A stretch of DNA of 64,000 bases from Tsuneonella troitsensis (GTDB lineage: Bacteria > Pseudomonadota > Alphaproteobacteria > Sphingomonadales > Sphingomonadaceae), in contig NZ_LMAU01000001.1 of assembly GCF_001441535.1 (NCBI RefSeq), positions 310,001 through 374,000 of the forward strand, read 5' to 3'. The notes under the pieces are model-generated. The model was not told the DNA's origin and did no database searches. It was given only the letters and a program-made list of their open reading frames with translations. Positions 22,047 to 48,384 of the stretch are shown here, piece by piece (the first letter of the stretch is position 1; each line of letters opens with the position of its first letter). Position numbers and translations under genes: made by a program.

Positions 22047-23009
22047 TCAAATGTCACCGCCCGTAAGCCTCTGACAAACAAGGTCTAACTGGTCGAGTGT
22101 ACGATACCTGATGGTCACCGCACCCGACCGCGGATCGTCGTCGGTCTTGATCCGTACCGTCAGACCCAGGAATTCCTCGAGATGGCGCTGGACCGCGGCA
22201 ATATCCGCGTCCTTGGCAGGATCGCGCGCCACACGCGCCTTCCGTCGGCCCGAGTCCTTCGCGCTCGACCGACGGACTAGCGATTCGACCTCGCGCACCG
22301 ACAGGTTGTCCCGAGCCGCGCGCGCACCAAGCATCACCGCATCGGGGTGACCGATCAAGGCGCGGGCATGACCCATCGACAGTTTCGATTCCTCGACGAG
22401 GTCGAGCACGGGTTCGGGAAGCTGGAGCAGTCGCTGCAGGTTGGCGACGTGGCTGCGCGATTTGTCGACCAACGTGGCAATTTCGGCTTGGCTCATCCCT
22501 TCCGATTCGGCGAGCTGGGCATAGGCCCTGCCCTCCTCGACCGGGTTGAGATCCTCGCGCTGCAGGTTCTCGATCAGAGCCAGCGCCATGACCTCGCGCT
22601 CGTCGAGCTCGCGGACAAGGGCGGGGATTTCGTGCAGGCGCGCTTTTTGCGCCGCACGCCAGCGCCGCTCACCCGCGACGAGCTGGTAGCGACCGCCACC
22701 GAGTGGGCGGACGATGATCGGCTGGATCACCCCGCGCTGCCCAATCGAAGCCGCCAGTTCCTCGAGCGCAGCCTCGTCGAAGCGCCGCCGCGGCTGACCG
22801 GGAAGCGGCTCGATCGCCGAAACGGGAAGATTGGCGAGCCCGGTTCTGGACGAATTAGATTTTGAATCAATGCTTTGGTCGATTACGAGCGGCTCTTCCC
22901 GGCGCGTTTCGCCCAGCAATGCCCCCAAGCCCTTCCCCAGTCGCTTGCGGGTGTCGTCCTTTGGACGGTCGGGAATCGAGAAGCGAATCGGGTCAGCCGG
23001 ATCGCTCAT
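22047..23009 (-). CDS. parB: Chromosome partitioning protein ParB
   Basis: 320 residues from ATG 23009, with GAAAGGAAA upstream; it overlaps the parA stop (ATGA). Order of parts: N-terminal RKRLGKGLGALLG (ParA-stimulating region), the CTP-binding/clamp domain with the GERRWRAAQKA arginine box, the helix-turn-helix QAEIATLVDKSRSHVANLQRLLQ that reads parS, and a C-terminal dimer domain ending in RLTGGDI. It loads on the parS sites found 0.8, 1.8 and 3.3 kb upstream and slides as a CTP-dependent clamp. Confidence 0.97.
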   Translation of the reverse strand: MSDPADPIRFSIPDRPKDDTRKRLGKGLGALLGETRREEPLVIDQSIDSKSNSSRTGLANLPVSAIEPLPGQPRRRFDEAALEELAASIGQRGVIQPIIVRPLGGGRYQLVAGERRWRAAQKARLHEIPALVRELDEREVMALALIENLQREDLNPVEEGRAYAQLAESEGMSQAEIATLVDKSRSHVANLQRLLQLPEPVLDLVEESKLSMGHARALIGHPDAVMLGARAARDNLSVREVESLVRRSSAKDSGRRKARVARDPAKDADIAAVQRHLEEFLGLTVRIKTDDDPRSGAVTIRYRTLDQLDLVCQRLTGGDI

Positions 23010-23782
23010 GCAGCTTTCCTTTCGGCGGGCAGGCGACCGATCAGTTCGCGCGCGAGCGCCATGTACGCGCGGCTGCCGGTGCAATTATGGTCGTAGACCA
23101 GCGCGGGGAGCCCGTGACTTGGCGCCTCCGACAACCGCACGTTGCGTGGGATGACCGATTCGAAGACGAGCGGACCCAAGCACGCGCGCACGTCGTCCGC
23201 CACCTGGTCGGTCAGGCGATTGCGGCGATCGAACATCGTCAGCACGACGCCGATGATGCCGAGATCGGCATTGAACCGCTGCTGCACCCGCTCGACGGTG
23301 AGCAGCAGCTGCGACAATCCCTCCAGCGCAAAGAACTCGCACTGGAGAGGCACGAGCAGAGTATCCGCGGCGCTCAATGCGTTGAGCGTCAGAAGACCCA
23401 GCGACGGCGGACAGTCGATAAAGGCGATGTCGTGCCCGTGATGACCGTCGAGCACGCTGCTGAGCCGAGCGGTGCGGTCTTCCACGTTGACGAGCTCGAC
23501 TTCGGCACCCGAAAGGTCGACGGTCGCCGGAACGATGTCGAGCAAAGGGATTCCGGTCGGGGCGATACAGTCGGCCAAAGGCGCGCCATCGACCAGTAGA
23601 TCGTAGCTCGACCGCTCGCGGTCATCGCTTCGGACGCCCATCCCCGTGGACGCGTTCCCCTGCGGATCGAGATCGATTAGCAAGGTTTTCCAACCCGTTG
23701 CAGCCATCGCCGTGGCGATGTTGATTGCCGTGGTGGTCTTGCCCACCCCGCCCTTTTGGTTGGCCACTGCGATCGTGATCAT
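23006..23782 (-). CDS. parA: Chromosome partitioning ATPase ParA
   Basis: 258 residues. Deviant Walker A KGGVGKTT at residues 10-17, Walker A' DLDPQGNAS and Walker B IDCPPSLG. It binds nucleoid DNA as an ATP dimer and moves the ParB-parS complex. Overlaps the rsmG stop (ATGA at 23779-23782) and the parB start, so mnmG-rsmG-parA-parB is one coupled operon, the typical origin-linked order. Confidence 0.97.
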   Translation of the reverse strand: MITIAVANQKGGVGKTTTAINIATAMAATGWKTLLIDLDPQGNASTGMGVRSDDRERSSYDLLVDGAPLADCIAPTGIPLLDIVPATVDLSGAEVELVNVEDRTARLSSVLDGHHGHDIAFIDCPPSLGLLTLNALSAADTLLVPLQCEFFALEGLSQLLLTVERVQQRFNADLGIIGVVLTMFDRRNRLTDQVADDVRACLGPLVFESVIPRNVRLSEAPSHGLPALVYDHNCTGSRAYMALARELIGRLPAERKAA

Positions 23783-24414
23783 TTTCCAGCGGCCTCCGTT
23801 AAGTCTCGACCCACGACGATGCCGGCATCTGCATCCGTCACCGACTGTTCCACGTGAAACATATGACGCAACGTCTTCGGCAAGTCAGCGACTTCCTGCG
23901 CCCCGGACCGTCCCTTCGGCAACAACCACAGCGTGTCTTTTGTGGAAAAGCGGCGGGCCATGGCAATGAGTTTCGGCAAGGGAGCGAAGGCGCGCGCCGT
24001 CAGAATACCTGCTTTGGCATCGGGCAAAGCCTCCACCCGCGCACCGAAAACGGTGCAATTCGCGAGGTTGAGTGCTTCAACGCAGCGATTGAGCCAGTCG
24101 ATACGGAGTCGGCGCGACTCGACCAATCGGACCTCGATATCCGGGCGCATCGCCGCCAGGACGAGCCCGGGAAAGCCAGCCCCGCTTCCCAGGTCCATCA
24201 GAGAACCCGCGGGTGGGTCTGGCATGAGATCGAGGAGCTGGGCACTGTCCGCGATGTGCCGCCGCCAGATCGAATCGACCGAAGTCGCCGAGACGAGGTT
24301 TTGGCGGGCGTTTTCTTCCTTGAGCAGCGCTACGAGCCTATCAAGCCGTTCCATCGCTGCTGCGTCACACCGCTGGGAGACGAAATCCCGCGCTTCACCC
24401 TCTCCCGATATCAT
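23779..24414 (-). CDS. rsmG: 16S rRNA (guanine527-N7)-methyltransferase
   Basis: 211 residues. SAM-binding loop [16 protein letters not shown], acidic strand end RLVESRRLR, and the family's [18 protein letters not shown]. It methylates G527 in the 530 loop of 16S rRNA. Its start overlaps the mnmG stop and its stop overlaps the parA start. The coding sequence contains a parS site at 23846-23861, reading through the VEQSV/HMFH region near the C-terminus. Confidence 0.95.
23846..23861. promoter_or_regulatory. parS site 1 (inside rsmG)
   Basis: TGTTCCACGTGAAACA matches the general bacterial parS TGTTNCACGTGNAACA at every position. It lies within rsmG, about 9.8 kb left of the proposed origin. 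Confidence 0.92.
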
Positions 24415-26309: not shown

Positions 26310-26325
26310 TGTTTCACGTGAAACA
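26310..26325. promoter_or_regulatory. parS site 3 (mnmE-mnmG gap), perfect palindrome
   Basis: TGTTTCACGTGAAACA is a perfect 16-base palindrome and the textbook parS. It fills the end of the 64-base gap between mnmE and mnmG and touches the mnmE stop codon at 26326. About 7.3 kb from the proposed origin. Confidence 0.97.
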
Positions 26326-32541: not shown

Positions 32542-33567
32542 TCACCCCCTCCATGCACGAACGGTGTCGCGCAGGGCCTCGACGTGCGGGATCGGGGTAT
32601 GCTGGCCGATGCCGTGGCCAAGATTGAAGACGTGCGGCCGGTCGGCGAATGCCCGGAGGATCGCCTGCGTCCGTTCGACCAGGCGGTCGCCGCCGGCCAT
32701 CAGGAGCAGTGGATCGAGATTGCCCTGCACCGGCATCCCGGCCGGTAATTCGCGCGCGGCCCAGACCGGATCGATCGTCTCGTCCACCCCGACCGCATCG
32801 ACGCCCGTCTCGCGGGCATAGTCGGCCAGCTTGGCCCCAGCCCCCTTGGGAAAGCCGATCACCGGGACACCCGGACAGCGCGCCTGCACAGCCGCGGCGA
32901 TCCGCGCATTCGGCGCGATGACCCAGCGTTCGAACTCGTCGGGCGCCAGGCTGCCCGCCCAGCTGTCGAACAGCTGCACGGCCTCGGCCCCGGCCTCGAT
33001 CTGCCCGACAAGATATTCGACCGTCACCCCGGCAATCGCATCGATGATCGCAGCAAAAGCGATCGGGTCGCGATAGGCGAGTTCGCGGGCGGCATGATGA
33101 TCCTTCGACCCTTCGCCGTTCACCATGTAGGTCGCGACGGTCCACGGACTTCCCGCAAAGCCCAGCAAGGTGGTCTCAGGCCCGAGTCCGGCCTTCACTG
33201 CAGCGACGGTAGCGTAGATAGGATCGAGGCGCTCTGGCACGCTCTCAAGGCCCGCCAGCGCATGATCGGCGAGCCGGGGGGACAGGTGCGGTCCCTCGCC
33301 GGCCAGAAAAGTCAGGTCCTGTCCCATCGCGTAGGGGACGATCAGAATGTCCGAGAACAGGATCGCCCCGTCGAAACCGAACCGGCGGATCGGCTGCAGC
33401 GTGACTTCGGCCGCAGCCTCGGTATCGTAGACGAGCTCGAGGAAACCGCCCTTTTCGGCCCTGAGGGCGCGATATTCGGGCAGGTAGCGTCCGGCTTGGC
33501 GCATCAGCCACATGGGCACCTGGTCACTTCGGTGACCTTTCAGGGTATCGAGCAGCAAGCCAGGCAT
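32542..33567 (-). CDS. hemE: Uroporphyrinogen decarboxylase
   Basis: 341 residues, full length. N-terminal signature PMWLMRQAGRYLPEYRALR, the FSDILIVPYAMG strand, a conserved FAGSPWTVATYM, and the C-terminal NLGHGIGQHTPI. It decarboxylates uroporphyrinogen III to coproporphyrinogen III. It sits directly beside the proposed origin, the classic alphaproteobacterial location, and its start region overlaps the AT-rich edge of that site. Confidence 0.98.
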   Translation of the reverse strand: MPGLLLDTLKGHRSDQVPMWLMRQAGRYLPEYRALRAEKGGFLELVYDTEAAAEVTLQPIRRFGFDGAILFSDILIVPYAMGQDLTFLAGEGPHLSPRLADHALAGLESVPERLDPIYATVAAVKAGLGPETTLLGFAGSPWTVATYMVNGEGSKDHHAARELAYRDPIAFAAIIDAIAGVTVEYLVGQIEAGAEAVQLFDSWAGSLAPDEFERWVIAPNARIAAAVQARCPGVPVIGFPKGAGAKLADYARETGVDAVGVDETIDPVWAARELPAGMPVQGNLDPLLLMAGGDRLVERTQAILRAFADRPHVFNLGHGIGQHTPIPHVEALRDTVRAWRG

Positions 33568-33623
33568 CGCGTCTAATCCAATTCAATTAGATTCTTATAT
33601 AAGATGAAGGAGTCTGTTGGCCC

Positions 33624-33632
33624 TGTGGATAC
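33624..33632 (-). promoter_or_regulatory. DnaA box, one mismatch
   Basis: On the minus strand the bases read GTATCCACA against TTATCCACA. It is 20-30 bases from the AT-rich patch, the usual distance for an initiator box near the unwinding region. Confidence 0.65.
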
Positions 33633-33853
33633 TGGGGACAGCGGCGTCCTGCCTGATTTTTCCCGGGCTGGCCAGAATTTCGGGGGTGTCGAATCGCCAG
33701 AATGCCGCGTCAAGGCAAGCTTGTCCCCGTTATCCCGAACCTGTCGACAAGCTAGCGGGCCTGTCCACAAGGCGGCGGTCCGGATGGAGGTAGCGGGCAC
33801 GGAACCGGCAGGTCCGCTTGTCCCCGGTTGCCTCCCGTGGTTTATGCGGCACA

Positions 33854-33862
33854 TTCTCCACA
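33854..33862 (+). promoter_or_regulatory. DnaA box, one mismatch
   Basis: TTCTCCACA against TTATCCACA. It lies 29 bases before the PPSR start codon, so DnaA bound here could also affect that gene. Confidence 0.55.
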
Positions 33863-33890
33863 GGCCGATCGGCACGAGCGCATTCAATCC

Positions 33891-34736
33891 ATGCCCCGCC
33901 TTCACCTACATCTGCTGTCGGACTCCACCGGCGAGACGCTGGAGATGATCGCCAAGGCTGCGCTGGCGCAGTTCGAGGAGGCGGACGTCCAGCGGCACTT
34001 CTGGCCGATGGTGCGCAGCCGCCAGCACCTCGACAGGATCGTGCCGGATCTTGCGGCCAATCCGGGACTGGTGCTCTTCACGCTTGTGAACGACGAAACC
34101 CGCGCGCGGCTTGAGGAGCATTGCCGGGTGCTCGGTCTGCCGGCGGTCCCAGTGCTCGACGCGGTGACCGCCGCGCTCGAAAGCCATCTCGGCCAGGAAG
34201 CGCACGGCCGGCCTGGCCGGCAGCACGCGATGGACGAGGCCTATTTCGCGCGGGTCGAGGCGATCCAGTACACGATCGCTCACGACGACGGCATCGCCCA
34301 TGACGACTGGGAAGAAGCCGACATCGTACTCGCCGGGGTTTCGCGCAGTTCCAAGACGCCAACGAGCATCTACCTCGCCAATCGCGGGTACAAGGTCGCC
34401 AACATACCGCTGGTGATCGAAAGCCCCCCGCCCCCGGCCCTGTTCAAGTTGCGTCATCCGCTGGTCGTCGGGCTGACGACCGCGCCCGAGCGCCTCGTGC
34501 AGGTTCGCCGTAATCGCCTGCTGACCATCGCCGAGGGTCGCGAGACGAGCTATGCCGATGCAGAGCGCGTAGCCGAGGAAGTGCGGTTTGCCCGGCGCAT
34601 GTTCGCGGACAACGACTGGCCCGTGATCGACGTGACCCGCCGTTCGATCGAAGAAACCGCCGCCGCCGTCATTCGCTTGCTCACCGAGCGGCGCTCGCGC
34701 GAGGCGCCGCCGGTCGTCGGGCCGAATCCGATATGA
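33891..34736 (+). CDS. Pyruvate phosphate dikinase/PEP synthase regulatory protein (DUF299, PPSR)
   Basis: 281 residues. N-terminal [20 protein letters not shown] and the ADP-binding P-loop [20 protein letters not shown], then the C-terminal [17 protein letters not shown] block. Bifunctional kinase and pyrophosphorylase acting on a PEP-forming enzyme. It is the first gene on the right of the origin (the RP001-type neighbour). ATG 33891 is chosen because upstream in-frame sequence lies in the origin. Its stop overlaps the maf ATG. Confidence 0.95.
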
Positions 34737-41933: not shown

Positions 41934-42026
41934 GGGACTCTCCCTTGTCCAATTCTCCGGGACAGGCAGGTTGCCATGAATTGCGCCCCATTGCCAGCGC
42001 GGTGCGGGACGTACACAAGGCCGGCC

Positions 42027-42320
42027 ATGACCCGCCACTCGCCCCTCGACGATCCGGCCAGCGCTGCCTTTGCCTGGGGCCGCTGGAAGCGGATGATGCA
42101 GGTGATGGGGATCGCAACCGCGATCACCGTTGCCGCGATCCTCGGTTATATGTGGTTTTCGGAAACCGCCATGTCGATCCACTTCTACATCGCGGTCGGA
42201 CTCGGCGTGGGTGCCTCGATGATGCTGATGGGCGCGCTGATGGGTCTCGTATTCATGTCGAACGGGACCGGTCACGACGATTCGGTGGTCGATCCGCTCG
42301 AAGGCGATCGTCGGAATTAA
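42027..42320 (+). CDS. Small two-helix membrane protein, unknown
   Basis: 97 residues. Helices near residues 26-44 and 52-76. No family recognised. Its TAA stop shares bases with the TAA of the convergent Fe-S gene (TTAA). Confidence 0.7.
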
Positions 42321-42679
42321 GCTCCGCGCAGGCGCAGGTCCTCGACCGGTTCGCCGCCGATCAGGTGCTGCTGGATGATCCGCTCGAGCGCGGCCTCATC
42401 GCAGGAATGATACCAGACTTTGTCGGGCCAGACGACGGCGATGGGCCCCGCCTCGCAAACCTGGAGGCAATCCGCTTTCGTGCGCTGGACGGACGTCCCC
42501 ACGAGGCCGAGTTCCTTCAGCCGCCGCTTGAGGTATTTCCACGACCGTTCGCCCGCTTCGCGCGAGCAGCACTTCTGCTTGTCCGAAACGGCGCAGAGGA
42601 AAATGTGCCGCTCGACCCGCTCGCCGCCGATCTTGGCGAGTGCGGCGCGGGCCTTGGCGATGTCCCGCGGGTCCTTCAT
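42317..42679 (-). CDS. Thioredoxin-fold [2Fe-2S] ferredoxin-like protein
   Basis: 120 residues. Cysteines in [12 protein letters not shown] and ADCLQVCE fit a thioredoxin-like [2Fe-2S] protein of the (2Fe-2S) ferredoxin domain type. Partner unknown. Confidence 0.85.
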
Positions 42680-42718
42680 GCGCGCCCACCTAGCGGCTGA
42701 GCCTCGCGCAGGGAAGGG

Positions 42719-43246
42719 TCAGCCGCGTTTGCCGGCGATCCGTGCGATCTCGTCCTTGACCATGCGCTCGACCATGCCGGGCAGGTTCTTGTCGAGCCAT
42801 TCGGCCAGCATGGGGCGCAAAAGGTCCCGCGTCAGCCCTTCGAGCGAGGTTTCGCCCGAGCGCACGATCTGCGGCGGAACGCCCGGCTCGGCCAGCATGG
42901 CGAGGGCGGCGAGGTTCTCGCGCATCGCGTCGCGTGCCGAATCGGTCAGCAGCGGCGTATCGTCATCGTGATCCTGGAAGTCCGTTTCGCGTTCCAGATC
43001 GTGATCGTCGTGGCTGTCGTGCGCCGCCCGATCGTCGAATTCGGGCGCCTGCTCGACATAGTCGGTCGCAGCGAGATCGAGCACCTCGTCCGCCTCTTCG
43101 TCGTCAGCGGGTTCGGGTGCGGTTTCGAGCCCCTCCGTCTCGCGGCGACGGCGCGTGTCGAGTGCGCTCGCGCGGTTATCGCGTGCGATGACTTTCTTGA
43201 TCGATTCGAGGATTTCCTCGACCGAAGCTTCGCCTTCCTGGCGCAT
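42719..43246 (-). CDS. popZ: PopZ-type polar organising protein (DUF2497)
   Basis: 175 residues from ATG 43246. N-terminal helix SVEEILESIKKVIARD; a long acidic, low-complexity middle rich in Asp/Glu and His/Asp pairs; C-terminal helices LRPMLAEWLDKNLPGMVERMVKDEIARIAG. This is the PopZ layout: helix, disordered acid linker, oligomerisation helices. In Caulobacter PopZ anchors ParB-parS at the pole. Position beside tolC is the usual alphaproteobacterial one. Function here is inferred. Confidence 0.85.
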   Translation of the reverse strand: MRQEGEASVEEILESIKKVIARDNRASALDTRRRRETEGLETAPEPADDEEADEVLDLAATDYVEQAPEFDDRAAHDSHDDHDLERETDFQDHDDDTPLLTDSARDAMRENLAALAMLAEPGVPPQIVRSGETSLEGLTRDLLRPMLAEWLDKNLPGMVERMVKDEIARIAGKRG

Positions 43247-43278
43247 GCGACTGGACCCCCCGGTCTTTGAGCGACGTG

Positions 43279-44760
43279 TCACTCGGTGCCGCTGACCGGC
43301 GCCGAATCATAGTTAACACGAATCTCTGCGTCCGGAGCCGGGATGTCAACGGTCCGCGTGGACTGGACGATCGGGTCGGGATCGCGCGACCAGTCGTTCC
43401 ACTTGCCCTTCACGCGGTCGTAATTGATCTGCGGGTCGTAGAGCACGCCGTCGTCGCCCAGCCCCAGGTCGCGCGCCTCGGCGCGGCCCATTGCCGCCAG
43501 CAGGCTGAAACCCGCGACATAGGCGTTGCGCCGCGCGGTGACGAGCTGCGAGCGGGCAAGCACGAGTTCCTGCTCGGCATTGAGAATGTCGAGGATCGTG
43601 CGGTTGCCGACGGTGTTTTCGGCGCGCACGCCCTCCAGGCTCAGGGTGGCTGCATCGACCGCCGACTGCGTGCTGGCGATGATCTGCGTCGCTGCCTGCC
43701 AGCTCGACCATGCCGAGCGCACCTGCGCGATCACGTCGCGTTCGGCGGCGATGACGGTCTCGAGCGCGGCGGCGGAGCGCGCCTGCGCCTGACGCTGGAG
43801 CGCTGCCGGGCGGCCACCCTGGAAGATCGGGATCGATACGCTGACCCCGGCCTGCGCGGTCGTGGCCGTCTGCGGAACGTTGGGGCCGATATTGCCGCCA
43901 AGCGTTCCGAGGTAGTTGCTGTAGTCGCCCCCGGTGAAGATCGACACGCGCGGCAGGCGGCCCGATCCGGCCACGTCGACATCGAAGCGCGATGCCTCGG
44001 CCCGCTCGCGTGCGGCGATCAGGTCGGGATTGTCCTCCAGCGCCACGAAGACCGCGTCCTCCGCGCTCGCCGGGAGGCCCGGAAGCGGCGGCGGGGGCTG
44101 CAGGTCGTCGGGAGCAAGGCCCGTCAGCTGAATATAGGCCTCGCGCGCGGCGATGAGGTTGGCCTGCGCGCTCCGCAAATCGCCCTGGGCCAGCGCGAGG
44201 CGCGATTGCGACTGCGCCACGTCGGTTCGCGTCAGATCGCCGATCTCGAAGCGATCGGCGGTCGCCTGCGCGTTGACGGTGAGAACATCGACCTGGTTGG
44301 AGTTGAGACCGACCAGCGCCTCGCCGCGAATGACGTCCATGTACGCGGCGACAACCTGGGTGAAGATCGCCGACTCGGTGCCGCGCAGGTCGGCTTGCCC
44401 GGCTTCGACGCGGTTTTCCGCCGCCTTGACCGCGTTCTTTACCGCGCCGCCCGAATAGATCGGCACGCCAAGGTCGACACCCGCGTTGATCGCACGGCGG
44501 GGTGCGGTGAAGTTCGTTTCGCTCTGCTTGACGAATTCGATGTACTGCGCGCTGCCGGTGACGTTCGGGCGACCTGCCGACTTCTCGATCGGCACGCTTT
44601 CGTCAGTGGCGCGCTGCTGTGCGCGTGCGGCTTGCAGGGTCGGGTTGGTGCGATAGGCGCCGTTCAGCGCCTCGCGCAGGGTATCGGCATGGGCCGGACC
44701 TGCCGCGAGGGCAAGCAGCGCGCTGCCGAGCAGCAGGGAAGCACGGCCCGTGGCAATCAT
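43279..44760 (-). CDS. tolC: TolC family outer-membrane channel protein
   Basis: 493 residues. Signal peptide (LLALAAGPAHA) and then two outer-membrane efflux repeats: NPTLQAARAQQRATDESV, VGLNSNQVDVLTVNAQATADRFEIGDLTRTDVAQSQSRLA, and RTILDILNAEQELVLARSQLVTARR. Forms the exit duct of tripartite efflux or type I secretion. Its partner pump genes are not in the window. Confidence 0.93.
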   Translation of the reverse strand: MIATGRASLLLGSALLALAAGPAHADTLREALNGAYRTNPTLQAARAQQRATDESVPIEKSAGRPNVTGSAQYIEFVKQSETNFTAPRRAINAGVDLGVPIYSGGAVKNAVKAAENRVEAGQADLRGTESAIFTQVVAAYMDVIRGEALVGLNSNQVDVLTVNAQATADRFEIGDLTRTDVAQSQSRLALAQGDLRSAQANLIAAREAYIQLTGLAPDDLQPPPPLPGLPASAEDAVFVALEDNPDLIAARERAEASRFDVDVAGSGRLPRVSIFTGGDYSNYLGTLGGNIGPNVPQTATTAQAGVSVSIPIFQGGRPAALQRQAQARSAAALETVIAAERDVIAQVRSAWSSWQAATQIIASTQSAVDAATLSLEGVRAENTVGNRTILDILNAEQELVLARSQLVTARRNAYVAGFSLLAAMGRAEARDLGLGDDGVLYDPQINYDRVKGKWNDWSRDPDPIVQSTRTVDIPAPDAEIRVNYDSAPVSGTE

Positions 44761-44762
44761 GT

Positions 44763-45362
44763 TCAGAAACTCCAGGCCTTCGGCTTGTCGAATGCGGAAA
44801 GCCGCGGAATGCCGAGTTCGGCCAGCGGCAGAAGTGCGATGGTGCCGCCGGATTTGCGGCCGATGGCCAGCCGGCTCACCCCGTTGTCGATCAGGCCGGT
44901 GACCACGCGCGCATCTTCGGACAGGCGCTTGGCGATCCCTTCGGGCAGCTGTTCGACTGCCCCGTCGATCAGCAGCAGCGTGTAATCGCCCTTCTTGCCG
45001 CCCTTCATGGCGTCATCGGGAGTGACAACCGTGACCGACCCGGCAAGGCCTTCGATCAGGGCGGGCAGATAGCCGCTACCGCCATCGACCACGAGCACGC
45101 GATCGGACTGGACCGGCTTCGCTTCTGCAAGCAGGCGCGCATGGAACAGCGGGGCAGCGAGCATCGCGCTACCGCCCAGCGGCACGGCACGATCGATATA
45201 GGCAACCGGTCGCGCTTCGGCTGGCACGAAATCCTCGCGCGGGACGGCGTTCATCCGGGCGAGTACCCAGGGCTCGTTGACGCCGCTGGTGCGGAGCTGG
45301 CTGTCGATCATCGCGCGGCGCGCGGTGGCGAAGTCGGGTTCGGAACGGAGGGCGGCGGCCAT
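44763..45362 (-). CDS. Divergent protein-L-isoaspartate O-methyltransferase-like protein
   Basis: 199 residues from ATG 45362. N-terminal FATARRAMIDSQLRTSGVNEPWVLARMNAVPREDFVP is clear PCMT. The SAM site is altered to VDGGSGYLPA, and about 30 residues usually following it are missing, so binding may be weak or lost. Two bases from tolC, on the same strand. Probably co-transcribed with tolC and popZ. Confidence 0.8.
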   Translation of the reverse strand: MAAALRSEPDFATARRAMIDSQLRTSGVNEPWVLARMNAVPREDFVPAEARPVAYIDRAVPLGGSAMLAAPLFHARLLAEAKPVQSDRVLVVDGGSGYLPALIEGLAGSVTVVTPDDAMKGGKKGDYTLLLIDGAVEQLPEGIAKRLSEDARVVTGLIDNGVSRLAIGRKSGGTIALLPLAELGIPRLSAFDKPKAWSF

Positions 45363-45375
45363 TATCACGTAACCT

Positions 45376-45403
45376 GTATTAGCAATATAACACAGCGGGT
45401 CAA
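45376..45403 (-). promoter_or_regulatory. Promoter of the PIMT-like/tolC/popZ run
   Basis: Read on the minus strand: TTGACC, 16 bases, TAATAC. The start of transcription falls only a few bases before ATG 45362, so the message may be near-leaderless. Confidence 0.6.
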
Positions 45404-45554
45404 TGCCTCGGTGGACGGGACCCCCTGTCCAAAATTCGGGTCTTTGGCGATCGGGTCTTTGGCGCAATCGCTCGAAACCGCCAAGCGCTTTGACGCCCTA
45501 GTCCCGCGAACCTATCGCGCCTGTGGCGATTCGATCAGAAGGAGTGACGGGCCG

Positions 45555-47081
45555 ATGAGCGACATGACGACCATCCGCGAGGACGACCTGATCGACAGCG
45601 TGGCCGATGCGCTGCAGTTCATCAGCTACTATCACCCGATGGACTACATCCGCGCGCTGGGCGATGCCTACGACGCCGAACAAGGACCTGCAGCCAAGGA
45701 CGCGATCGCCCAGATCCTGACCAACAGCCGGATGTGTGCCGAAGGTCACCGCCCGATCTGCCAGGACACCGGCATCGTCAACGTGTTCGTGAAGTGGGGG
45801 CAGGATTGCCGCCTCGAATCGAACCGTTCGCTGCAGGACGTCGTCGACGAGGGCGTGCGCCGCGCCTACAATCATCCCGAGAACAAGCTGCGCGCCTCGG
45901 TCCTCGCAGACCCGGCTTTCACCCGTCGCAACACGCGCGACAATACGCCGTGCGTCTTGTCGGTCGAGATGGTCCCCGGCCGTACGGTCTCGATCGACGT
46001 CGCCGCCAAGGGTGGGGGCAGCGAAAACAAGTCGAAATTCAAGATGATGAATCCGTCGGATTCGATCGTCGACTGGGTGCTGGAGATGCTGCCCCAGATG
46101 GGCGCCGGCTGGTGCCCGCCGGGCATGCTCGGCATCGGTATCGGCGGCACGGCCGAGCATTGCGTGAAGCTCGCCAAGGAAAGCCTGATGGAGCCGATCG
46201 ACATGGCCCAGCTGAAGGCGCGCGGTCCCCAGAGCGATATCGAGGTGCTGCGGATCGAGATCTTCGACAAGGTCAACGCGCTGGGCATCGGTGCGCAGGG
46301 CCTTGGCGGCCTCTCCACCATCCTCGACGTGAAGATCCGGGACTGGCCCTGCCACGCTGCGGGCAAGCCGGTGGCGATGATCCCCAACTGCGCCGCCACC
46401 CGCCACGCGCATTTCACGCTCGACGGTTCGGGGCCGAGCTTCCTCGAGACGCCTAAGTTGTCCGACTGGCCCGACGTCCACTGGACGCCCGATGCGGCGG
46501 CGAAGCGGGTCAACCTCGATACCCTGACGCCCGAAGAGGTGTCCGGGTGGAAGGCGGGCGACCGGCTGCTCCTCAACGGAGCGATGCTCACCGGGCGCGA
46601 TGCAGCGCACAAACGCATCGAAGAGATGCTCAAGAAGGGCGAGCCGCTACCGGTCGAGTTCAAGGGACGTGCGATCTACTATGTCGGGCCGGTGGACCCG
46701 GTGATGGGCGAAGTGGTCGGCCCCGCCGGCCCGACGACCGCGACCCGGATGGACAAGTTTACCGACATGATGCTCGACCTCGGCCTGCTGGCGATGATCG
46801 GCAAGGCCGAGCGGGGGCAGGGCGCGACCGAGGTGATCGCGAAGCACAAGGTCGCCTACCTGATGGCGGTGGGCGGTGCCGCGTATCTCGTTGCGCGGGC
46901 GATCCGCGAGGCGAAAGTGGTTGCATTCGAGGATCTGGGAATGGAAGCGATCTACGAGTTCCGGGTCGAGGACATGCCGGTAACGGTGGCAGTCGATGCG
47001 ACCGGGGCCAACGTCCACACCCTGGCCCCTGCCGAGTGGCGCGAGCGGATCGCGGTGGGCAACTTGCTGCCCAGCGCATGA
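45555..47081 (+). CDS. Class I (iron-sulfur) fumarate hydratase
   Basis: 508 residues from ATG 45555. N-terminal dehydratase domain with RMCAEGHRPICQDTGI; a central GGGSENKSKFKM; the cluster-binding Cys in NCAATRHAHF and GWCPPG; C-terminal GPTTATRMDKF beta-domain. Converts fumarate and malate in the TCA cycle and is oxygen sensitive. Confidence 0.95.
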   Translation: MSDMTTIREDDLIDSVADALQFISYYHPMDYIRALGDAYDAEQGPAAKDAIAQILTNSRMCAEGHRPICQDTGIVNVFVKWGQDCRLESNRSLQDVVDEGVRRAYNHPENKLRASVLADPAFTRRNTRDNTPCVLSVEMVPGRTVSIDVAAKGGGSENKSKFKMMNPSDSIVDWVLEMLPQMGAGWCPPGMLGIGIGGTAEHCVKLAKESLMEPIDMAQLKARGPQSDIEVLRIEIFDKVNALGIGAQGLGGLSTILDVKIRDWPCHAAGKPVAMIPNCAATRHAHFTLDGSGPSFLETPKLSDWPDVHWTPDAAAKRVNLDTLTPEEVSGWKAGDRLLLNGAMLTGRDAAHKRIEEMLKKGEPLPVEFKGRAIYYVGPVDPVMGEVVGPAGPTTATRMDKFTDMMLDLGLLAMIGKAERGQGATEVIAKHKVAYLMAVGGAAYLVARAIREAKVVAFEDLGMEAIYEFRVEDMPVTVAVDATGANVHTLAPAEWRERIAVGNLLPSA

Positions 47082-47148
47082 CCGGTCTCGACGAACCGCT
47101 CACGGGGTCCGACTGTCGCGCTGGCCACCGGCACACTGTTTCCCCTAG

Positions 47149-48384
47149 ATGCAACGCGTTTTGACAAAGCATCCTGCCACTCACGACGAATCCGCCCGCC
47201 TGGCGCTGCGCGTCGTCCTCCTGTCGATCGTGGGCGTCTGGCTCGCCTACTTCGTGATCTTCACCGCCCGCGGGGCGATCGTCGGGCTCGACTACCAGTT
47301 CGATATCGTCGGGCGCCGGGCGCTCGTGACCGGGAGCGCGGTGGTCATCACGTTCGTGCTGTGGCTCCTGCTCCGACTATTCGACCATCGCTCCCTGGCA
47401 TTGCAGATCACGGCCGCCGCCTTGCTCGCGATGCCCGCCGCCGTCGTGATCGCCCAGACCAACCAGCTCGTCTTCGCAAGCCTGCAGGACAAGCTGGACA
47501 GCAAGCGGGCCGAAGAACGCGGGTTTTCCGTGAGGCGCGACGAACTGGGTAACGTCATCATCGAAGGCCCCACGACGGCGGGCGGTCAGAGAGATCCGCT
47601 CGAGGGTCGAAAATCCGCTCGTGCCACGGTGGTGCTACCCAGCGAACGAGGCGAGGAATGGGTACGCCTCGCGGAGGTGGCGCTCAGCCAGTACTTCCTG
47701 CTCATCGCGTGGGCGGCGATCTATTTCGCGCTGCTCGCAGGCGCCAGAGCCCGGCTGGCCGAGCGGCGCGGCGAGCGTTTCCGCAGCGCCGCTCGGGCCG
47801 CGGAACTGCGCAGCCTGCGCTATCAGGTGAACCCGCATTTCCTGTTCAACGCCTTCAACTCGCTGTCGGCCCTGGTCATGACGGGCAAGGGCGACCGGGC
47901 GGAAGAAATGATCCAGCGCCTGTCGAGCTTCTACCGCCACAGCCTGGCCGAAGACCCGACCGGCGACGTGATGCTGGCCGACGAGATCGCATTGCAACGG
48001 GATTACCTGGCGATCGAGTCGGTCCGGTTTCCCGATCGACTCCGGACCGTAATCGACTTGCCTGCAAATCTGGCGGAGCTGTATGTTCCCGGCATGATCC
48101 TGCAGCCGCTGGTCGAGAATTCGGTGAAATACGCGGTCGCTCCGAACGCCCGCCCGGTCACGATCTCGATCACCGCGCGCGAGGAGTACGATCGCCTCGT
48201 GCTCACGGTCGAGGACAACGGACCCGGATCGCCCGACAGCGGGGAGCACGGCTTCGGAATCGGACTGGCCAACGTCCGCGACCGGCTGATCGCGCGTTTC
48301 GGCACCGATGCGACGATCGTATCGGGACCGGTCGAGGGCGGCTATCGCAGCGAACTGCGTTTGCCGATGGTGGCGCGTGACTGA
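47149..48384 (+). CDS. LytS/YehU-type sensor histidine kinase
   Basis: 411 residues. Helices near 21-40, 57-78, 84-103 and 182-199 with an extracytoplasmic loop between the third and fourth. The kinase part has the phospho-accepting H230 in VNPHFLFNAFNSL and an ATPase domain with VEDNGPGSPDSGEHGFGIGLANVRDRL. The 3' end overlaps the response regulator GTG by eight bases. Signal unknown. Confidence 0.93.
   Translation: MQRVLTKHPATHDESARLALRVVLLSIVGVWLAYFVIFTARGAIVGLDYQFDIVGRRALVTGSAVVITFVLWLLLRLFDHRSLALQITAAALLAMPAAVVIAQTNQLVFASLQDKLDSKRAEERGFSVRRDELGNVIIEGPTTAGGQRDPLEGRKSARATVVLPSERGEEWVRLAEVALSQYFLLIAWAAIYFALLAGARARLAERRGERFRSAARAAELRSLRYQVNPHFLFNAFNSLSALVMTGKGDRAEEMIQRLSSFYRHSLAEDPTGDVMLADEIALQRDYLAIESVRFPDRLRTVIDLPANLAELYVPGMILQPLVENSVKYAVAPNARPVTISITAREEYDRLVLTVEDNGPGSPDSGEHGFGIGLANVRDRLIARFGTDATIVSGPVEGGYRSELRLPMVARD

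Follow-up and report, generated by a model that had tools for sequence, protein, structure and literature searches.

Introduction

The chromosome origin of Caulobacter crescentus, Cori, sits beside hemE, and hemE-linked origins in Caulobacter and Rickettsia were reportedly the subject of work by Brassinga in 2001. In the passages available from one paper (PMC4741004), an origin beside hemE is stated for the gene cluster, for Sphingopyxis granuli and for most Sphingomonadaceae in DoriC. The predicted origins of Wolbachia and related bacteria also resemble the locus described here in having hemE as a boundary gene, DnaA sites and few CtrA sites, although the other boundary gene in Wolbachia encodes a CBS-domain protein and not PpsR (PMC1914354, excerpts). 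A preliminary description of a 64,000-nucleotide stretch of the Tsuneonella troitsensis genome (the window) placed a probable chromosome origin at its hemE-PPSR junction. Here, we compare this junction with those of relatives and with the described hemE-linked origins.

Results

Boundary genes and neighborhood

The predicted origin is a 323-bp gap between the divergent genes hemE and ppsR, with exact coordinates in the window (Table 1) and at C1:343568-343890 of the 2.90-Mb, nine-contig genome. Its left neighbors are hemJ, rho, mnmE, mnmG, rsmG and parB, and its right neighbors are maf, aroE, dnaQ and coaE. The gene order had been given as rho-hemJ-hemE / PPSR-maf-aroE-coaE-dnaQ; in family searches rho, hemE, ppsR, dnaQ and coaE exceeded the NCBIfam cut-offs, but HemJ, Maf and AroE, although the top families for their proteins, scored under the curated cut-offs. 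Among named PpsR proteins, the one from T. litorea is the closest (95%). The reported flip in gene direction holds directly beside the gap but is weak window-wide, with 18 of 29 left genes on the minus strand and 18 of 30 right genes on the plus strand; the gene calls behind these counts are rough, being based on homology, and contain overlapping shadow ORFs as well as one spurious ORF within the gap.

A 701-bp query, consisting of the gap and parts of hemE and ppsR, matched 32 of 40 genomes, our own included. Of 110 loci, 106 yielded the hemE-ppsR junction (79/80 named and 27/30 class-wide); named and unnamed loci come partly from the same species, so these sets overlap. The named locus that yielded no junction (L208) begins near a contig end, and three class-wide loci (L239, L240 and L244) have a fetched flank without hemE. 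The class-wide set, with the window itself among its members, comprises 30 loci kept from the 136 of 193 genomes that had a ppsR match; 23 of its 26 loci from outside the family have the junction. A dnaA-linked origin was rejected: dnaA lies on contig C5 and not on the contig of the gap, and the 3.5-kb locus around it has no perfect DnaA box. Separation of dnaA from the origin is reportedly usual in Sphingomonadales (PMC8116508, in part).

Table 1. Features of the hemE-ppsR gap and its surroundings, in window coordinates
Feature	Position	Strand	Basis
parB	22047-23009	-	TIGR00180 above cut-off
parS, one mismatch	23846-23861		motif scan
parS, exact, TGTTTCACGTGAAACA	26310-26325		motif scan
hemE, boundary gene	32542-33567	-	TIGR01464
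Predicted chromosome origin (hemE-ppsR gap)	33568-33890		predicted function
AT-rich patch, presumed unwinding region	33572-33609		most AT-rich 30-bp windows of 64 kb; putative unwinding
GANTC site (GATTC)	33590-33594		site scan
GANTC site (GAGTC)	33610-33614		site scan
DnaA box GTATCCACA, one mismatch	33624-33632	-	inside conserved block 33609-33629
GANTC site (GAATC)	33691-33695		GANTC in all 16 aligned gaps, with A (11) or C (5) in the middle
Weak DnaA box TTATCCCGA, two mismatches	33730-33738	+	box scan
Two CTGTCNACAAG copies, 20 bases apart	33741-33771	+	repeat scan
Weak DnaA box TTGTCGACA, two mismatches	33742-33750	-	box scan
Weak DnaA box CTGTCCACA, two mismatches	33761-33769	+	box scan
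Conserved block TCCCGTGGTTTATGC	33833-33847	+	16-gap alignment; possible -10 region of ppsR
DnaA box TTCTCCACA, one mismatch	33854-33862	+	box scan
ppsR, boundary gene	33891-34736	+	NF003742

DnaA boxes, AT-rich patch and conserved blocks

The two one-mismatch DnaA boxes on opposite strands, the AT-rich patch and the repeat copies CTGTCGACAAG and CTGTCCACAAG, spaced by exactly 20 bases, were all found as previously described, and weak boxes are also present but number three instead of two. In 400 kb of the contig, two one-mismatch boxes within 323 bp occur at the gap only (399,678 overlapping windows), as do five boxes with up to two mismatches in windows of the same size. Across the 64-kb window as a whole, one-mismatch boxes are not in excess (5 versus a shuffle mean of 2.92, with at least 5 in 17 of 100 shuffles). 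The gap has no perfect DnaA box, and all five perfect boxes of the genome lie elsewhere. In the 64 kb, an AT content of 80% or more is reached by seven 30-bp windows, all of which begin at 33572-33580. A candidate DnaA-trio motif of the basal unwinding system (DnaA box, spacer, DnaA-trios), defined after an excerpt of PMC8287927 as at least three NAN triplets no more than 16 bp from a DnaA box, can be read in the window and in 12 family gaps out of 23, where shuffling gives an expectation of 7.2. In a relative from another family (L028), the part of the gap from hemE to the left DnaA box was observed to contain a run of GGT trinucleotides.

An alignment of 16 gaps has 83 invariant columns out of 390, and its longest conserved blocks are at 33609-33629, ending in the left DnaA box, 33646-33659 and 33833-33847. 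Identity of the gap to those of ten congeners is 71-80% and does not clearly exceed the identity of other called non-coding stretches, in a comparison made rough by the homology-based gene calling, which took a spurious ORF in the gap.

Linkage to parS and strand composition

The parS sites of the window lie 7-10 kb from the gap. In all six genomes compared, sites resembling parS (no more than two mismatches) were present 7.3-11.5 kb to the left of the junction, while such sites with an ACGT center were absent from all 80 sampled congener stretches described below. Next to parB, the reading frame at 23006-23782, which we take to be parA by the look of its sequence, had no NCBIfam match at 1e-30.

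Strand composition was assessed in 20 stretches of 20 kb around the chromosome of each of four complete congeners, giving 80 stretches; one of these genomes (G002) was ambiguous when sampled alone, and therefore three further complete congeners were added. The arm counts leave out 11 stretches, those no further than 2% from the junction or 5% from its antipode; among the rest, 30 of 35 on the right arm had positive GC skew and 32 of 34 on the left arm had negative GC skew. Octamers of the form GGGNAGGG, which we assume from other bacteria to be of the KOPS type, were distributed 111/19 in the right arm and 18/81 in the left arm. The assumed origin was then moved around the genome 5% at a time, the terminus always being placed opposite it; scored over the full set of 80 stretches, GC skew and octamers alike gave 0.00 as the best offset. 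Taken singly, G003, G004 and G009 switch skew in a bin at or beside the junction, and the best switch point for G002 is 0.083-0.133 of the genome. On our own contig, the octamers were distributed 8/24 to the left and 19/11 to the right over 200 kb on each side (Fisher p 0.004).

This switch bears on whether the gap is a promoter region only, with boxes and GANTC sites that regulate hemE and ppsR and an origin elsewhere on the chromosome. Perfect DnaA boxes do occur before other genes, including ccrM and ftsZ, the region upstream of ccrM is also dense in GANTC (5-8 per 200 bp in 11 congeners) and, by eye, TTGTCC at 33818-33823 upstream of the block at 33833-33847 could complete a ppsR promoter. 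However, a strict promoter scan gave no promoter, leaving the ppsR promoter reading unsupported, and both the parS linkage and the switch of congener strand composition at the junction argue for an origin here; we consider a purely promoter-bound function extremely unlikely.

GC skew is weak, and at a finer scale its behavior is different. The cumulative minimum of our own contig, over 400 kb around the gap, lies 8.5 kb to the right of the gap at C1:352074. Within 25 kb on each side, all six genomes compared have their minimum to the right of the gap, at a distance of 8.5-13.8 kb (own, +8.5; G008, +9.8; G002, +10.0; G003, +10.4; G006, +12.5; G009, +13.8 kb). The minimum of cumulative skew had been proposed as a check on the origin and, as run here in part, this check agrees with the junction at 5% steps in four congeners taken together but not at fine scale, and the latter is the main result against an exact placement of the origin. 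These minima would be expected if the origin were in the neighborhood but 8-14 kb to the right, the gap being only a DnaA-regulated divergent promoter. Yet the gap is the only DnaA-box cluster in 400 kb, and the called non-coding stretches at 42006-42316, 44761-45140 and 47082-47190 hold 0, 1 and 0 boxes, respectively, at up to two mismatches. Moreover, because the six genomes share gene order, a common gene-strand effect could shift the minimum and may be the cause of its offset from an origin within the gap. An origin to the right is, in our judgment, very unlikely. In window coordinates, the local skew-minimum region is 42000-47500.

GANTC sites in the gap and at ccrM

The gap contains three GANTC sites (Table 1); 1,203 of 39,968 windows of our own 400 kb contain at least three. 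In 23 family gaps there are 121 GANTC sites against 26.8 expected from base composition, by far the largest excess among 16 palindromes of the form XYNY'X' (the next is 1.7-fold), although such counts overstate the evidence because related sequences are not independent. The corresponding figures are 5 versus 9.7 expected in seven gaps of other families of the order and 73 versus 35.8 in 23 class loci outside the family. Among the 79 named loci the gap carries 13.99 sites per kb, 7 times the 1.99 per kb of the flanks, which are mostly coding. With 60-kb congener neighborhoods as the control, the count of the gap was not reached by any other window in four of five; in the fifth (G008), 292 overlapping windows reach it. 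A literature search, conducted largely at the level of titles and covering few subscription journals, found no description of a GANTC cluster in Sphingomonadales origins.

A RAMA domain, which occurs in CcrM, was detected in 39 of 40 genomes, including our own. The ccrM gene of this genome (contig C4; L260 1089-2225) has a perfect DnaA box 32 bp upstream, amid GANTC sites. Scored within -150 to +45 of the start, a perfect box is present at ccrM in 11 of 11 genus members, our own included, and in 9 of 19 other family members, eight of them at -22 to -39 and one further upstream. Among the loci kept (30 per search, from the 59 of 60 order genomes and 51 of 57 class genomes with a match), it was found in none of 15 from the other families of the order, two of which have a one-mismatch box, and, elsewhere in the class, in 3 of 28, where its position is different. 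The link between DnaA and ccrM is not new as an idea, since DnaA control of ccrM was predicted earlier, mainly where CtrA sites are lacking (PMC2877005, in part).

The remaining perfect boxes of the genome were also located. L261 (near 1995) and L262 (near 2001) hold two of them: one precedes ftsZ, and the other lies some 210 bp before an ORF (1311-1790) beside rsmH that is presumably mraZ-like, given its position. In L263 and L264 (both near 2001), one box precedes a GGDEF-domain gene and one is close to an ORF with no NCBIfam match at 1e-10. Separately, methylase-like matches with identical coordinates and score lie near the starts of two contigs of G000 (C1:789-1505 and C5:789-1505) and may represent one repeated element at contig ends.

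Discussion

Our results suggest that the hemE-ppsR gap is very probably the DnaA-dependent chromosome origin of this Tsuneonella species. The box cluster, AT-rich patch, parS linkage, conserved blocks and congener strand switch at 0.00 support the earlier placement of a probable origin at this junction, and "probable origin" is the right wording for evidence of this kind, drawn from sequence. We propose that DnaA would bind the pair of one-mismatch boxes, one towards each end of the gap, and then fill the intervening weak boxes by cooperation. This may open the AT-rich patch beside hemE, with helicase loading to follow, and ParB at the parS sites 7-10 kb away would segregate the copies so produced by initiation.

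The role of the conserved GANTC cluster is less clear, and any effect of these sites on initiation is one that we infer. They may serve GcrA and CcrM in controlling transcription at the promoters on either side, without a part in initiation, which we hold to be somewhat the better account. Intergenic enrichment of GANTC is stated for most alphaproteobacterial chromosomes (excerpts of PMC8116508), the ccrM promoter is equally dense, and Caulobacter without CcrM controls initiation normally, according to a passage of PMC3973325. Against this, the sites are spread along the gap and the conserved site at 33691-33695 is far from both gene starts. A bolder proposal is that a loop links initiation to methylation by CcrM in the Erythrobacteraceae and their near relatives: with a conserved GANTC cluster at the origin and a perfect DnaA box at a fixed place in the ccrM promoter, DnaA would control the methylase that marks the origin, replacing the CtrA control of the Caulobacter origin. 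We regard this loop as speculative and rather improbable.

Placement of the origin by several lines of sequence evidence will aid genome orientation and the reading of gene dosage in Tsuneonella and its relatives. It also raises the question of whether the timing of initiation in this group depends on DnaA and GANTC methylation, at an origin that lacks CtrA sites.

Comparison with Cori of C. crescentus reveals likeness as well as difference. Cori similarly has parS at less than 8 kb and low-affinity DnaA sites (PMC4468827, in part) and several GANTC sites (PMC3973325, in part). Unlike the gap, which has no CtrA site even with one mismatch, Cori has five high-affinity CtrA sites (PMC4468827, in part). 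Among 30 gaps, the CtrA site TTAA-N7-TTAA was perfect in none and present with one mismatch in two. As our own gap lacks such sites, a Caulobacter-type CtrA-controlled origin was rejected. This lack is not unusual because most other alphaproteobacterial origins have no CtrA sites that could be seen, as stated in the same excerpts of PMC4468827. Of the marks of a hemE-linked oriC, the gap has a hemE boundary within a conserved cluster, a cluster of imperfect boxes, an AT-rich region and a strand switch, the last at a resolution of about 5%. The predicted oriC of Sphingopyxis granuli TFA belongs to the same order and is likewise adjacent to hemE, with conserved putative DnaA boxes and an unwinding element (PMC4741004, in part); it is from another genus, and the likeness is at the level of published description. 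An origin adjacent to hemE is thus already published for relatives, and the predicted Tsuneonella origin is an added member.
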